In this document: in pieces, positions 43,844 to 52,703 of the stretch
How the letters are laid out: each line of letters begins with the position of its first letter
Position numbering within the stretch: position 1 is the stretch's first letter
Assembly: GCF_018688375.1 (NCBI RefSeq)
Contig: NZ_CP061318.1
Location: forward strand, 1,798,001 to 1,862,000
Reading direction: 5' to 3'
DNA: 64,000 nt
DNA from: Polynucleobacter sp. AP-Ainpum-60-G11
Lineage (GTDB): Bacteria; Pseudomonadota; Gammaproteobacteria; Burkholderiales; Burkholderiaceae
Made by a program: the position numbers and the translations under genes
The notes under the pieces: model-generated
Told to the model about the DNA's origin: nothing
What the model saw: only the letters and a program-made list of their open reading frames with translations
Databases searched by the model: none

Positions 43844-44010
43844 CTCCAGCTAAATACGATCCAATGCTGGAGTAGAAACTCGCTAGCCATTGAATCATGG
43901 GTTAGCGAGCGCAGTTGCAATTAGCAAACTCTGGGGTTACCTAGGAGTCCACTCCCTTCAAGCCTGGGGAAACGCTGGTTCACAGCATTCCTTGCAACGC
44001 TCCTTGAAGG
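43844..44010 (-). promoter_or_regulatory. S-adenosylhomocysteine (SAH) riboswitch of ahcY
   Basis: On the minus strand, stem P1 is CCTTCAAG (44010-44003) with CTTGAAGG (43962-43955). Inside are GAGCGTTGCAAG and CCAGG, the conserved SAH aptamer segments, around a nine-pair P2 hairpin. The pseudoknot partner GCGCTC (43912-43907) pairs with GAGCGT. The expression platform has three overlapping hairpins: CTCGCTA (43909-43903) with TAGCGAG (43885-43879); GAGT with ACTC (43881-43870); and CTCCAGC (43872-43866) with GCTGGAG (43850-43844), which hides the ahcY ribosome site. The layout fits an 'on' switch with SAH. Element 43907-44010 is the aptamer. Confidence 0.9.
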
Positions 44011-44040
44011 TATGGCGAAATTGTAATCAATTTCGCCATA
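44011..44040 (-). repeat. Perfect 13-base inverted repeat between metK and SAH aptamer
   Basis: TATGGCGAAATTG and its exact complement CAATTTCGCCATA enclose a four-base loop, directly 5' of stem P1 of the SAH aptamer. A further copy of GGCGAAAT lies just outside at 44040-44048. There is no U-tract on the minus strand, so it is not a standard terminator of metK. It could slow or end readthrough from metK, protect an RNA end, or bind a protein. Confidence 0.7.
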
Positions 44041-44090: not shown

Positions 44091-45257
44091 TTACAAGCCG
44101 GCTGCTGCACGTAAGGCAGGCGCCTTATCGCACTGCTCCCAAGTAAATTCTGGCTCTTCACGACCAAAGTGACCATAAGCAGCAGTCTTACGATAAATCG
44201 GACGTAATAGGTTCAGCATCTTGACGATGCCTTTTGGACGCAAGTCAAAGTGCTCAGATACCAATTGCGCAATCTTCTCGTCAGAGATCTTGCCAGTACC
44301 ATATGTGCTCACCATCACTGAGGTTGGTTTAGCAACACCAATCGCATAAGAGATCTGGATCAAGCACTTGCTTGCTAAGCCTGCGGCAACTACGTTCTTT
44401 GCTACATAACGACCAGCATAGGCAGCTGAACGGTCAACCTTGGATGGATCCTTACCAGAGAATGCCCCACCACCGTGAGGAGCTGCACCGCCGTAGGTGT
44501 CCACAATGATCTTGCGACCTGTCAGACCGCAATCGCCTTGCGGGCCGCCGATTACAAATCGACCGGTTGGGTTTACCAAGAAGTTAATCGCACCTTTGAT
44601 CAAATGCTTTGGCAACACTGGTTTGATAATTTCTTCGATCACTGCTTCGCGCAATTTCTCGAGAGAAATTTCTTCATCATGCTGTGTAGAGAGAACTACG
44701 GTGTCGATTGAGTCAGGCTTGCCATCCACGTAACGCAGGGTCACTTGTGACTTTGCATCTGGACGCAACCAGTTCAAGCGGCCATCACGGCGCAGTTGAG
44801 ATTGACGTTCTACTAAGCGGTGTGACAAGTGAATTGGCAAAGGCATAAGCTCTGCAGTCTCGTCACAGGCGTAACCAAACATCAAACCTTGGTCACCAGC
44901 ACCTTGATCTAGACCATCGTCATGTGCCTTGTCAACGCCCTGAGCGATATCAGGACTTTGCTTGTCATAAGCAACCAGCACGGCACAACCCTTGTAATCA
45001 ATACCGTAATCAGTGTTGTCGTAACCAATTTCACGCAAAGTATTACGTGCTACTTGAATGTAATCCACATTGGCATTCGTTGTAATCTCACCAGCCAATA
45101 CTACTAAGCCGGTATTACACAAAGTTTCCGCAGCAACACGTGCAGTTGGGTCCTGAGCCAGGATTGAGTCCAGGATGGCATCAGAGATTTGGTCTGCTAC
45201 TTTATCGGGGTGACCTTCAGAAACTGATTCTGAGGTAAAGAAGTAATCATTAGCCAT
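44091..45257 (-). CDS. metK: S-adenosylmethionine synthetase MetK
   Basis: MetK makes SAM from methionine and ATP. The 388-residue protein starts [26 protein letters not shown] (quoted as its parts [11 protein letters not shown] and [11 protein letters not shown]), has [14 protein letters not shown], the phosphate loop [22 protein letters not shown] and ends with [12 protein letters not shown]. All active-site motifs are intact. The ATG at 45257 has AAAGGA seven bases upstream. A leader with a SAM-II-like aptamer precedes it. ahcY lies 252 bases downstream on the same strand. Confidence 0.98.
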
Positions 45258-45320
45258 TGCATATTCCTTTAAAAAATTAACACGATCAAATGGACAACTC
45301 GACGTGCCAGGAATTTCAAC

Positions 45321-45376
45321 GGCGACGCTTTAGCAGAATTTATGAATCGCCCTGCAAGTTGCCTTAACTCAGCGAT
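45321..45376 (-). promoter_or_regulatory. SAM-II-like riboswitch candidate upstream of metK
   Basis: Read on the minus strand, ATCGCT (45376-45371) pairs with GGCGAT (45351-45346) as P1. The loop holds GAGTTAA and TTGCAG, and the 3' strand holds CATAAAT and GCTAAA. In the same order these are the conserved segments of the SAM-II aptamer as I recall it (TGATTTAA, TTGCA, GATAAAT, GCTAAA). GCAG (45355-45352) can pair with CTGC (45336-45333) as the pseudoknot helix P2. GGCGA (45351-45347) can instead pair with TCGCC (45325-45321), which excludes P1. ATTCC (45314-45310) can pair with GGAAT (45267-45263) at the metK ribosome site. Confidence 0.7.
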
Positions 45377-45461
45377 GGATGAATTCTATCCGAAAAACAC
45401 CTTATTCATCAAGCCAAACAAGAAATTTGGCCCTATCCCCAGCATTGAATATCATTAGAGG

Positions 45462-46322
45462 GTGCGTAAATACCTTCTCAAGCTAACCCTCGCTGCAATA
45501 GCGGTATTACCCTTATTCCTTGTTCAGGTGATTGGGGCTGCTTTAGGGGCTCTGGCTTATGTGGGCTCCAAGCAATATCGATCACTTTTTCGCCCTCAAT
45601 ACGAAGCAGCTATTAAAAGTCATCATTTACCCCTGCAAATCTGGCATGCTGCTGCCGCTTCAGGACAACTCTTCTCGGACAGTTTGTGGATTTGGCGCAA
45701 TCCATCAAAGGCGCTTAAGCTAGTCGAGGTCCAGGACTGGGATCTGGTTGAGGAAGCTATTAACGAGGGTCATGGCTTAGTCATGCTGACTCCACACCTC
45801 GGTGGTTTTGAAATCATTCCCCGGGTCTTAGCTCAGCACTTTCCTGCGACCATTCTTTATCGCCCGTCTCGCCAAGAATGGCTTAACGAAGTGGTGGAAG
45901 AGGGTCGCGCTTATCCCAATATGCATTTTGTACCAACCAACCTCAATGGCGTTCGCCAAATGACACGCGCCCTCACTCGCGGAGAAGCCATTGGCATTCT
46001 TCCAGATCAAGTACCTAGCGGCGGTGAAGGTGTTTGGGTACCCTTTTTCGGGCGCCCTGCCTATACGACCCCACTTCCCGCTCGCTTAGCTAATCGCAAT
46101 AACACGCCGGTTGTGATGTTTACCGCTAAACGCAAAGGTCTTGGTAAGGGCTGGCTCATGCAAGCCAAGAGACTAGAACCGCTGTCTGAAGACTCCACAG
46201 CTGCTGCCACCGAACTCAATGTCGCAATTGAAAATGCGATCCTAGTTGCACCCAATCAATTTATTTGGGCCTATAACCGCTACAAACATCCTAGCGGGGC
46301 AGAATTACCACCGAGCAATTAG
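45462..46322 (+). CDS. Lysophospholipid/lipid A acyltransferase, LpxL family (first copy)
   Basis: A 286-residue inner-membrane acyltransferase of the LpxL/HtrB family, which adds secondary acyl chains to lipid A. An N-terminal membrane helix (about 6-30) precedes the catalytic HLGGFE (His-x4-Glu, in LTPHLGGFEII), then ILYRPSRQ, ILPDQVPSGGEGVWVPFFG and the closing FIWAYNRYKHP. The only usable start is GTG at 45462, with AGAGG immediately upstream, so initiation may be weak. A second member follows 25 bases later; the two probably add different chains. Confidence 0.9.
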   Translation: MRKYLLKLTLAAIAVLPLFLVQVIGAALGALAYVGSKQYRSLFRPQYEAAIKSHHLPLQIWHAAAASGQLFSDSLWIWRNPSKALKLVEVQDWDLVEEAINEGHGLVMLTPHLGGFEIIPRVLAQHFPATILYRPSRQEWLNEVVEEGRAYPNMHFVPTNLNGVRQMTRALTRGEAIGILPDQVPSGGEGVWVPFFGRPAYTTPLPARLANRNNTPVVMFTAKRKGLGKGWLMQAKRLEPLSEDSTAAATELNVAIENAILVAPNQFIWAYNRYKHPSGAELPPSN

Positions 46323-46347
46323 TTAATAAATTTATAATTTATTCGAC

Positions 46348-47247
46348 ATGGTCTGCTTACAAAACGTTTTTAATTTTCTAGCACTGAACTTGCTACGACT
46401 ATTTGCATTTCTGCCTTATGCCCTGACCATCTACATTGGCTACGGGCTTGGATGGATGGCTGCCCACATTCCCAATGAACGTGCCAAGGTAGTTAAAACT
46501 AACTTACGCCTTTGCTTTCCCAATCTGAGCGAAGATGAAATTCATTCGCTTGCATCAGAACATTGGAAGTTATTCGGACGCAGCGTCATCGAGAGAAGTC
46601 GTATTTGGCTTGGAAGCGGAAAACAGATCACCGACATCGTCAGTATCAATTCTGAGATTACGCTGGGAGATCGCAAGCCACGACTCTTAATCAACCCTCA
46701 CTTTGTTGGACTTGAGGGCGGCTTCATGGCACTTTCTGTTTTGGCTAGTCAGCACGATTGGCCACGTGGTGCCGGTCTCTACCAAAATATGAAGAACCCA
46801 TTCTTTAATCAAAAAATGATTGAATGGAGAAATCGTTTTGGTGGTAAATCGATTGAGCGTCAAAGTCGCTTGCGTGATTTGATTCGCGAAATTCAAACGG
46901 GTAACTTTATTTTCATTGCGCCTGATATTGATCTTGGGCCACGCGACTCCGTTTTTGTCCCCTTCTTTGGAATCCAAACCAATACGATCACTTCAGTCTC
47001 GCGCTTAGCCAAGCTGAGTGGTGCAGAGGTCTGCCTCATGACTACGACTTTAGACCCCGATCGCAAAGCCTATATTTGCAATATCAGCGCCCCACTTCCC
47101 AACTTTCCGACGGATGATGTTGAAGCTGATACTGCACGACTAAACAAATACATCGAAGACCTTGTTCGCGAAAGGCCGGCAGAGTACTATTGGGTACACA
47201 AGCGCTTTAAGCATAGGCCGCCTGGCGAGCCTAGCCTTTACAACTAA
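46348..47247 (+). CDS. Lipid A acyltransferase, LpxL family (second copy)
   Basis: A 299-residue relative of the preceding protein, with an N-terminal membrane helix, [20 protein letters not shown] (typical of LpxL), HFVGLEG as catalytic His-x4-Glu, [18 protein letters not shown], and the end [19 protein letters not shown]. It is more like canonical LpxL than the first copy. Both likely act at the inner face of the cytoplasmic membrane on Kdo-lipid A. It ends 11 bases before dapF. Which chain it adds cannot be told. Confidence 0.92.
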
Positions 47248-51567: not shown

Positions 51568-52703
51568 GATTTAGCCTCTAGCATTTGTTCAAAATAAGCA
51601 CGAATCAGATTGTGATAACGAGGGTCATCTAACAAGAAAGCATCATGCCCGTGTGGCGCATCAATCTCTGCATAACTTACTTCACTCTTGTTGCTGAGTA
51701 AAGATTCCACAATCTCGCGACTACGATTGGGTGGAAAACGCCAATCGGTTGAAAAGCTCACTACCAAAAACTTAGCCTGCACTTCCGCTAAAGCACGATT
51801 GAGGCTACCCTCATAACGACGGGAAGGGTCAAAATAATCTAATGCTCTGGTGATCAGCAAATAGGTGTTGGCATCAAAGTACGTGGAGAACTTATCGCCT
51901 TGATGACGCAAATAACTCTCTACCTCAAATTCGACATCAAAACTAAAACGATAGTCTTGAGATTCACCGTAAGGTCGTTGTAATTCGCGCCCAAACTTTT
52001 CTGCCATGTCATCGTCAGATAAGTACGTAATATGTCCAACCATACGAGCCAACTTTAGACCGCGCTTTGGCACCACGCCATGCTCGTAATAATTACCACC
52101 ATGAAAATCAGGGTCAGACAAAATAGCGTTTCGCGCCACTTCATTAAATGCAATATTTTGTGCGCTTAACTTTGGTGTTGAGGCGATTACCAAGCAATGC
52201 GCGAGGCGTCTAGGAAACTGAATTGACCAAGCCAATGCTTGCATACCACCCAAGCTTCCGCCCATCACCGCAGCAAAACGGCGAATACCCAACTTATCAG
52301 CCAAGCGCGCCTGGGTGTTTACCCAATCTTCTACTGTGATGACCGGGAAATCGGCGCCATAAGGCTTGCCAGTAGCGGGATTAATGCTCATCGGCCCAGT
52401 AGACCCAAAGCAAGAGCCCAAGTTATTAACGCCAATGACAAAGAAGTGGTTCGTATCTACCGGCTTGCCTGGCCCAATCATGTTGTCCCACCAACCAATA
52501 TCGCTTGCATCATCGGGGTTGGGACCGGCTACATGGTGCGATGCATTGAGCGCATGGCAAACCAGCACAGCATTACTTTTATCGGCATTGAGCTTGCCGT
52601 AAGTTTCAATAACTAAATCGTAGCCCGATAAGATGGCGCCACTTTGCAAAGGCAAGGGCTCGGCAAAGTGGATCGTGTTTCTAGAGAGGTGCAGCTCGCT
52701 CAT
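51564..52703 (-). CDS. metX: Homoserine O-acyltransferase MetX
   Basis: MetX activates homoserine by acylation, the first specific step of methionine synthesis. The 379-residue alpha/beta hydrolase-fold protein has [12 protein letters not shown], the nucleophile Ser in [11 protein letters not shown], and Asp/His in [11 protein letters not shown] and [11 protein letters not shown]. Many betaproteobacterial MetX enzymes use succinyl-CoA rather than acetyl-CoA; I cannot settle the donor by eye. It overlaps slmA by four bases and metW by four bases. Confidence 0.94.

Follow-up and report, generated by a model that had tools for sequence, protein, structure and literature searches.

What controls metK in the betaproteobacteria? 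In the accessible text of Leyn et al. (2014; PMC4239095), a search for metK regulators in the beta-Proteobacteria is reported to have failed, and no description of a SAM-type element at betaproteobacterial metK was found in the open-access literature searched, most subscription papers lying outside it; the available portions of PMC12121620 and PMC12452182 contain nothing on such an element. The question is raised by a 64,000-nt stretch of Polynucleobacter sp. AP-Ainpum-60-G11 (contig NZ_CP061318.1; hereafter the window, in whose numbering plain coordinates are given), where a first-pass annotation placed a SAM-II-like riboswitch in the metK leader. The comparative data bear out a SAM-II-like pseudoknot ahead of metK, through the covariation of its P1 and pseudoknot helices, and the element, which is real, common and structured, is best read as a translational SAM-II-related variant. 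It provides a concrete, common and directly testable candidate for metK control in betaproteobacteria, and since the Rfam model scores it low, searches with such models would miss it.

Structure and conservation of the metK leader element

The metK gene of the window (methionine adenosyltransferase, 388 aa; TIGR01034, 611.3 bits) lies at 44091..45257 on the minus strand, as do all the leader features described below. A sigma-70-like promoter at 45383..45412 (TTGATG, an 18-nt spacer and TAGAAT; nine of 12 matches in a consensus scan) ends six bases ahead of P1, and the span 45376-45324 reads as an H-type pseudoknot. The 5' strand of P1, ATCGCT (45371..45376), is followed by the first loop strand GAGTTAA (45364..45370), which is the equivalent of SAM-II UGAUUUAA and carries G as its third letter in place of U10; by GGC (45361..45363), the 5' strand of P2a, which reads GAC in most aligned relatives and has its partner at 45326-45324; by the segment AAC; and by TTGCAG (45352..45357), the 5' strand of the pseudoknot (P2 core), in which UU pairs with AA and GCAG with CTGC. 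The 3' strand of P1, GGCGAT (45346..45351), completes six pairs, one of them U-G, and TCATAAATT stands between it and CTGC (45333..45336), the 3' strand of the pseudoknot; CATAAAT is read at 45344-45338 and GCTAAA at 45334-45329. Conserved in 116, 116, 116 and 115 of 116 aligned elements, the TAAA at 45329..45332 presumably supplies the ligand-contact equivalents of U44, A45, A46 and A47 in SAM-II numbering. The dinucleotide GC then leads to GTC (45324..45326), the 3' strand of P2a, and the start codon of metK, 45257, lies 67 nt past its end. The six segments named in the first-pass annotation (ATCGCT, GAGTTAA, TTGCAG, GGCGAT, CATAAAT and GCTAAA) are thus all found on the minus strand in the order given there, and the P1 and GCAG/CTGC helices that it drew both form and covary; the two-base longer loop, taken there as a mark of this element, loses its distinctiveness, as loop length varies across the family.

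The alignment from which both P1 strands, CTGC and GTC were assigned by covariation holds 116 elements from 100 loci, all matching at E <= 0.001 a model (R1) built from 15 metK leaders. Its loci were hand-picked to thin near-duplicates, with related loci still counted separately, its restriction to R1 matches makes it lean towards metK-like elements, and the model behind it contained the P1 pairs only. P1, the P2 core and P2a together comprise 15 pairs, in which 94.5% of the cells are paired, as against 85.1% after shuffling, and 10 of the pairs show changes on both sides. The covariation score of 0.247 (0.083 when shuffled) was equalled by none of 500 shuffles, and the score falls to 0.015-0.044 when the partners are slid by 1-3 columns. 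Pairing by helix amounts to 94.4%, 91.4% (helix 2) and 96.1% (helix 3), helix 2 being P2a, where two of the three pairs have changed on both sides. Within the pseudoknot, column pair 49-140 is changed on both sides in 37 of the 116 cells and unpaired in 23, while the weakest pairs are the outermost of P1 (33 of 116 non-standard) and the third of the P2 core (23 of 116). A mutual-information scan of columns filled in more than 90 of the 116 rows, with no structure supplied, ranks 4-88 (P1), 15-43, 49-140 (pseudoknot) and 3-90 (P1) as its top four pairs, with the P2a pair 38-153 in eighth place. At this comparative level, the H-type fold predicted for P1 and the pseudoknot is shown by covariation.

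Conservation of single bases follows the same outline. The two U after GAG (both T of the window GAGTTAA), the UU and C of UUGC, and GCUAA are present in 116 of 116 elements, and the G of UUGC and the last A of GCUAAA in 115. Using SAM-II position numbers that are presumed to apply here (U10, U11, U21, U44, A45 and A47), the equivalents of U11, U21, U44, A45 and A47 are kept in 116, 116, 116, 116 and 115 of the 116 elements. Length is freer. In a relative from the same genus (L012:2719-2793, minus strand), a repeat-like insert of about 10 nt sits in the first aptamer loop with the core strings intact, and inserts of about 15-45 nt between P1 and the last pseudoknot strand occur in several families (L026, L029, L119, L150, L166 and L190). 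Such long inserts may help to explain missed model matches.

Rfam 15 yielded no SAM-family match in the window metK leader even at E <= 10, a threshold at which SAM-V (RF01826), SAM/SAH (RF01727) and SAM-II long loops (RF01726) each went without a match, and the window element does not reach the 36-bit gathering cut-off of SAM-II (RF00521). Profiles made from the aligned elements behave differently: the element is the top match in the 64 kb window for a profile built without the genus (109 elements; E = 2.7e-16), for one built without elements at most 700 nt from metK (57 elements; E = 4e-15) and for one built from G-G elements only (29 elements; E = 1.2e-11), with match ends at 45376 or 45375 to 45319 or 45318 and runner-up matches at E = 0.27, 0.27 and 0.078, respectively. 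Since all three profiles pick the element first in the window, it stands far above chance. The checks proposed by the first-pass annotation hence gave a divided outcome, in that the SAM-II and SAM-V covariance models find no match whereas relatives display strong conservation and compensatory change. The best RF00521 match elsewhere in the genome (27 bits, G000:C1:223058-223137) falls within an open frame of 167 aa, is matched by neither R1 nor R2 (R2 being a model built from the 116 elements, all of this order) and is taken as chance; the frame itself presumably encodes a Fur-type regulator. Plasmid records searched with the leader gave no match.

The surroundings of metK hold a further sensor of a known class. 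A SAH riboswitch (RF01057, 47.6 bits, gathering 37) lies outside the element at 43900..44011 on the minus strand, between metK and the next gene, ahcY, so that two neighbouring genes of the SAM cycle are equipped with sensor RNAs of different kinds. In the ahcY frame the first ATG (43898) is two bases from the SAH aptamer, and an internal ATG (MSTVSD...) looks the likelier start. On the plus strand, two consecutive frames at 45462-47247, presumably for lysophospholipid acyltransferases, diverge from metK across the leader. The metX gene of the window (51591-52661) follows closely behind another open frame and has no R1 or R2 match ahead of it, the one match of the genome being that at metK.

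Distribution, subtypes and tandem arrangements

The element precedes metK in all 24 genus loci read, from a genus set of 25 genomes of which one, 79% complete, lacked a metK match, and the motif is carried by four of the six loci read in other families (L025, L026, L027 and L029, not L028 and L030). Within the order, R1 matches 292 of 399 sampled genomes (E <= 0.01) and R2 matches 76 of 100 (E <= 0.001). Of these 100 genomes, 28 have an element 42-111 nt ahead of a metK match (28 of 103 metK matches), 72 show no match at metK, and 13 have tandem pairs. At metK the element is thus common in the order and far from universal. Among 299 genomes sampled from the phylum, 50 are matched by R2, of which 19 belong to the order, 15 to the rest of the class and 16 to lineages outside the class. 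A pattern scan of named genomes returned at least 118 stretches; among the 80 matches listed, 63 are at metK, 10 at small-protein/MATE loci and seven at unassigned loci (one a leader cut by a contig end), and the genera represented among these listed matches include Polynucleobacter, Cupriavidus, Pusillimonas, Thauera, Dechloromonas, Accumulibacter, Sutterella, Chromobacterium and Vogesella. For 12 of the 80 matches listed, R1 locates another copy no more than 150 nt away: nine of the 10 small-protein/MATE matches, the tenth ending at the element, three of the seven unassigned ones and none of the 63 at metK. Andreprevotia chitinilytica (L319) has one of the tandem leaders.

The column pair 15-43, second in the mutual-information scan, is A-A in 85 elements, G-G in 29 and another combination in two (114 of 116 homopurine). 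All 59 aligned elements at metK loci are A-A, and their U10 equivalent is G in 54 and T in five, so that the T-to-G change first remarked upon in the window recurs in most of its metK counterparts. At metZ, 11 of the 12 aligned elements are G-G, and the U10 equivalent is T in 11 and G in one. Hairpins that resemble terminators, with a T run, come after 27 of the 29 G-G elements, two of the 85 A-A elements (L025 and L083, both at metK) and neither of the two mixed ones, L110 being scored without a terminator even though one is visible by eye. In the 16 tandem loci of the alignment, several of them related, the upstream copy is G-G in every case and the downstream copy A-A in 15.

Among the targets of the tandems are a protein of about 100 aa that begins with MYDC or MFDC and has a MATE transporter (TIGR00797, L106) behind it, and further small proteins; no Pfam match was obtained for the MYDC, 60-aa and 154-aa proteins scanned. 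Genes of the MYDC/MFDC family stand behind elements, mostly ahead of a MATE transporter, at L087, L090, L093, L095, L106-L109, L124, L127, L144, L161 and L162, and neither of two members scanned matched Pfam or NCBIfam; a SAM-related protein is possible. In L100, L101 and L113 the element has T at its U10 equivalent and is followed by an uncharacterised protein of 60-65 aa, and the next open frame in L100 and L101 is presumably an alanine dehydrogenase. In L252 and L253 (same class, family f55), GATTTA elements with long inserts stand before a protein of 102-106 aa; its second half, in L252, bears a weak likeness to class I methyltransferases or MetW that stays below the cut-off (Pfam E 0.022-0.16) and is perhaps a SAM-binding fragment. 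Tandem leaders precede small genes outside the metK/metZ/MATE set in L088, L285, L292 and L317, and L269 has, instead of a tandem, another element some 690 nt upstream that is terminator-like. The uncharacterised small genes behind these elements may belong to SAM biology.

Tandems that join a terminator-type SAM-II with a translational SAM-V are described from marine bacteria in the accessible parts of PMC6061858 and PMC9481103, the latter cataloguing, in 2022, 44 SAM-II doublets, some with mixed platforms. The tandem arrangement itself is hence not new; for a betaproteobacterial form with the targets given above, no description was found in the open-access literature searched, which leaves most subscription papers outside. 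On balance, and by a slight preponderance, betaproteobacteria would have evolved a two-part SAM-II system of their own, in which a G-G, terminator-type element and an A-A, translation-type element, often with G in the pocket strand, would be used singly on metZ and metK, respectively, and together in fixed-order, dual-level tandems that serve a MATE transporter and small proteins as yet uncharacterised. Such a system would parallel the marine SAM-II/SAM-V pairs, with one purine pair marking the platform. The metK element also suggests that the SAM-II superfamily (SAM-II, SAM-V and the metK type described here) gave rise on more than one occasion to separate transcriptional and translational forms.

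Predicted expression platform and alternative readings

How the element might act on metK can be read from the segment that adjoins it. Minimum free energy (MFE) folds of 11 leaders contain, in 10 cases, a hairpin that starts directly downstream of the aptamer and masks either the ribosome site or the start codon, its sequence differing between genera; the MFE fold of L017 is without it. The window leader has no terminator-like site, and the 5' side of its predicted sequestering hairpin is GCCGTTGAAATTCC (45310..45323), in which GCCGTTG pairs with CAATGGC over the start codon and TTCC with the GGAA of the metK ribosome-binding site, AAAGGAA (45264..45270). The pairing of ATTCC (45314-45310) with the ribosome site, put forward from the window letters, fits this hairpin as predicted across metK leaders. 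In 144 metK leaders chosen for a present core, a start 25-200 nt past it and a distinct 3' region, predicted pairing of the ribosome site to the next 45 nt past the core has a mean p of 0.687 versus 0.406 with that segment shuffled, and p exceeds 0.5 in 126. When ribosome-site segments were swapped between loci in 51 leaders of at least 80 nt, the own segment gave -19.25 and swapped ones -16.19 kcal/mol, and five of the 51 loci beat all swaps, a contrast that is modest partly because the loci are related. CTC occurs in the first 25 nt of 73 of 102 leaders with GGAG/GAGG sites versus five of 42 with other sites, a count that is independent of the core pattern. A ligand-free pairing of G10 with the CTC anti-ribosome-site segment was also considered and is not claimed, since the pattern misread several cores (10 of 144 uncalled, and some Polynucleobacter cores given as A or T).

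The reading preferred here, and held with considerable confidence, is that the metK leader is a SAM-responsive aptamer that descends from, or shares descent with, SAM-II and acts by translational repression, as an A-A subtype beside a G-G terminator subtype found on metZ and in the first halves of tandems. Judging from the promoter-like site, the transcript would start at about the first base of P1. SAM would lie in the pseudoknot helix groove, next to a U:A.U triple and to the U of GCUAAA that never varies, a placement proposed from the matching invariant bases and from the SAM-V structure. Once bound, SAM would hold the outer helix GAC/GUC (P2a) in place, and the adjoining 3' segment would be free to form the hairpin over the ribosome site, which in Polynucleobacter would cover the start codon too, and metK translation would fall when SAM is plentiful, as in a translational OFF switch. 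Bacteria with the metK element therefore probably shut metK off when SAM is sufficient. Within the genus, a possible ligand-free alternative would pair GACAAC or GGCAAC of the aptamer (45363-45358) with its complement GTTGTC downstream (45293..45298), as recognised in the sequences of genus leaders. The second fold proposed in the first-pass annotation, GGCGA with TCGCC, exists in the window and may still form there, but it does not covary in the 116 elements; as a family-wide switch helix it is rejected (one of five pairs changed on both sides; score 0.115 versus 0.117 shuffled), so that any ligand-free state is conjectural.

Other explanations differ from this reading to varying degrees. The element could be an ordinary SAM-II RNA that the Rfam model scores low, with no separate subtype; its fold and invariant bases are alike and the sequence series is continuous, but the identity of the homopurine pair, the U10 base, the terminator state and the tandem order go together, and 18 of 20 further metK loci have no SAM_alpha match even at E <= 10, which leaves this explanation doubtful though worth weighing. 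It is, moreover, no rival in mechanism. A sharper departure would be the same fold with another ligand, the exchange of U10 for G, together with the A-A pair, having retuned the pocket to SAH, to methylthioadenosine or to SAM and SAH alike. The changed pocket-strand base of the metK type (presumably at U10) does count against a SAM-II-like reading, the base divides metK from metZ elements (G in 54 of 59 versus T in 11 of 12), and some A-A elements precede genes without a known SAM role, such as the MATE transporter and the uncharacterised small proteins. Against this, equivalents of the SAM-V sulfonium U:A.U triple are present in 116 of 116 elements, metK is a target that suits SAM feedback, the base is exchanged in both directions (G in one of 12 metZ and T in five of 59 metK elements), and A-A copies stand in tandem behind G-G copies at the same gene; a change of ligand is accordingly thought unlikely.

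The mode of action is the point at issue if the element were to act by transcription termination, or to turn metK on rather than off. Two of the 85 A-A elements do have a terminator-like hairpin, and the MFE fold of L017 departs from that of the other leaders folded; the window leader, however, is without a terminator-like site, predicted hairpins cover the ribosome site instead, and SAM-V, to which the element is closest among translational RNAs, is described as an OFF switch in the accessible text of PMC6061858, so that this possibility, too, is given little credence, and a shade less. Finally, the leader might be a structure sensed by a protein or the ribosome, through attenuation or protein-mediated feedback. 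Small-molecule binding is a prediction here, and a stable sequestering hairpin is predicted to form in the leader unaided, yet the invariant bases agree with the binding pocket of an aptamer class already known, and related elements score above the SAM-II cut-off, which makes such sensing very improbable.

Kinship with SAM-II, SAM-V and other leader RNAs

The preferred reading of the element as a SAM-responsive relative of SAM-II draws on a graded series of matches. Against RF00521, G-G elements fall on both sides of the cut-off: L110 (43.9 bits) and L192 (38.8), both before metZ, and the upstream copy of L088 (36.9) lie above it, and L106 (35.2), L103 (33.3) and L173 (27.4) below. In a search of 16 loci, the upstream copies of L095 and L112 gave no match, nor did the metK loci at E <= 0.5, and the 20 further metK loci gave two sub-threshold matches, correctly placed (22.8 and 20.4 bits). 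In the other direction, R2 hits the same register (E <= 0.01) in 10 of 30 genomes from outside the class that have RF00521 sites (G428, G436, G462, G466, G486, G501, G531, G551, G578 and G597) and misses the site in 20, three of them matching only elsewhere and 17 not at all. A profile of 18 distinct other-class SAM-II sequences fitting a text pattern (from 29 loci, L200-L228, of the same phylum and presumably Alphaproteobacteria) places the window element second at E = 2.8, a failure that counts against simple SAM-II membership, and reaches 10 bits in three of 85 A-A elements, 14 of 29 G-G elements and none of 580 shuffled sequences. Because this profile and R2 largely miss a direct relation, the link runs through the metZ type, and sequence similarity shows a stepwise kinship, from other-class SAM-II to the G-G/metZ type and thence to the metK type. 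With its score under the Rfam cut-off and without the U10 feature, the element is filed as a variant of SAM-II kind rather than as a member of SAM-II.

Published structures and predictions give this series a physical counterpart. In the accessible text of Barrick and Breaker (2007), a G-G or A-A pair is predicted between P1 and the SAM-II pseudoknot strand, and column pair 15-43 would be that homopurine pair. The same text reports SAM-II in beta-Proteobacteria, and some metZ-type elements pass the Rfam cut-off, so that the earlier statement that the class is known mainly from alphaproteobacteria stands only with a qualifier. For SAM-V, the accessible part of PMC6061858 describes the SAM adenine as bound by U47, a U20:A48.U9 triple as facing the sulfonium and A50 as holding the amino acid end, with SAM-II binding virtually identically; the TAAA at 45329..45332 likewise corresponds to U47, A48 and A50, and all these contact bases have equivalents in the aligned elements.

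Several other leader RNAs invite comparison. SAM/SAH (RF01727) is also a pseudoknot and, in the text available, precedes metK in Rhodobacterales, and SAM-II long loops (RF01726) is an enlarged SAM-II. The betaproteobacterial guanidine-gene-associated motifs GGAM-3 and GGAM-5 are set apart by the gene associations described rather than by sequence comparison, GGAM-3 occurring only before sugE and GGAM-5 before various genes with sugE the commonest, according to the accessible text of PMC7736828. Closer at hand is the metXZ element of PMC4239095, a betaproteobacterial leader pseudoknot with a terminator before metX or metZ, for which no ligand is named in the part of that paper available. The metZ-type elements fit this description and would be the same element; the window element differs in standing at metK and in its leader having no terminator-like site.

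With SAM-II (RF00521) the element shares the H-type pseudoknot, the first loop strand GA-x-UU, UUGC, GCUAAA, an A-rich third strand, the A-A or G-G homopurine pair and a methionine-pathway gene. It departs from SAM-II in that the window element and the 20 other metK loci stay under the Rfam cut-off, in the G at the U10 equivalent, in the general lack of a terminator, in metK as its target, in an outer helix of three pairs and, for some members, in long inserts between P1 and the last strand. Unlike SAM-V (RF01826), which comes from marine Alphaproteobacteria and Bacteroidetes, it is found here in betaproteobacteria and has a separate sequestering hairpin 3' of the aptamer. A translational platform like that of SAM-V is predicted for it, and what it has in common with SAM-V is a short outer helix and a place in tandem arrangements: SAM-V is the second member behind a terminator-type SAM-II in the accessible texts of PMC6061858 and PMC9481103, and the A-A copies likewise come second here.
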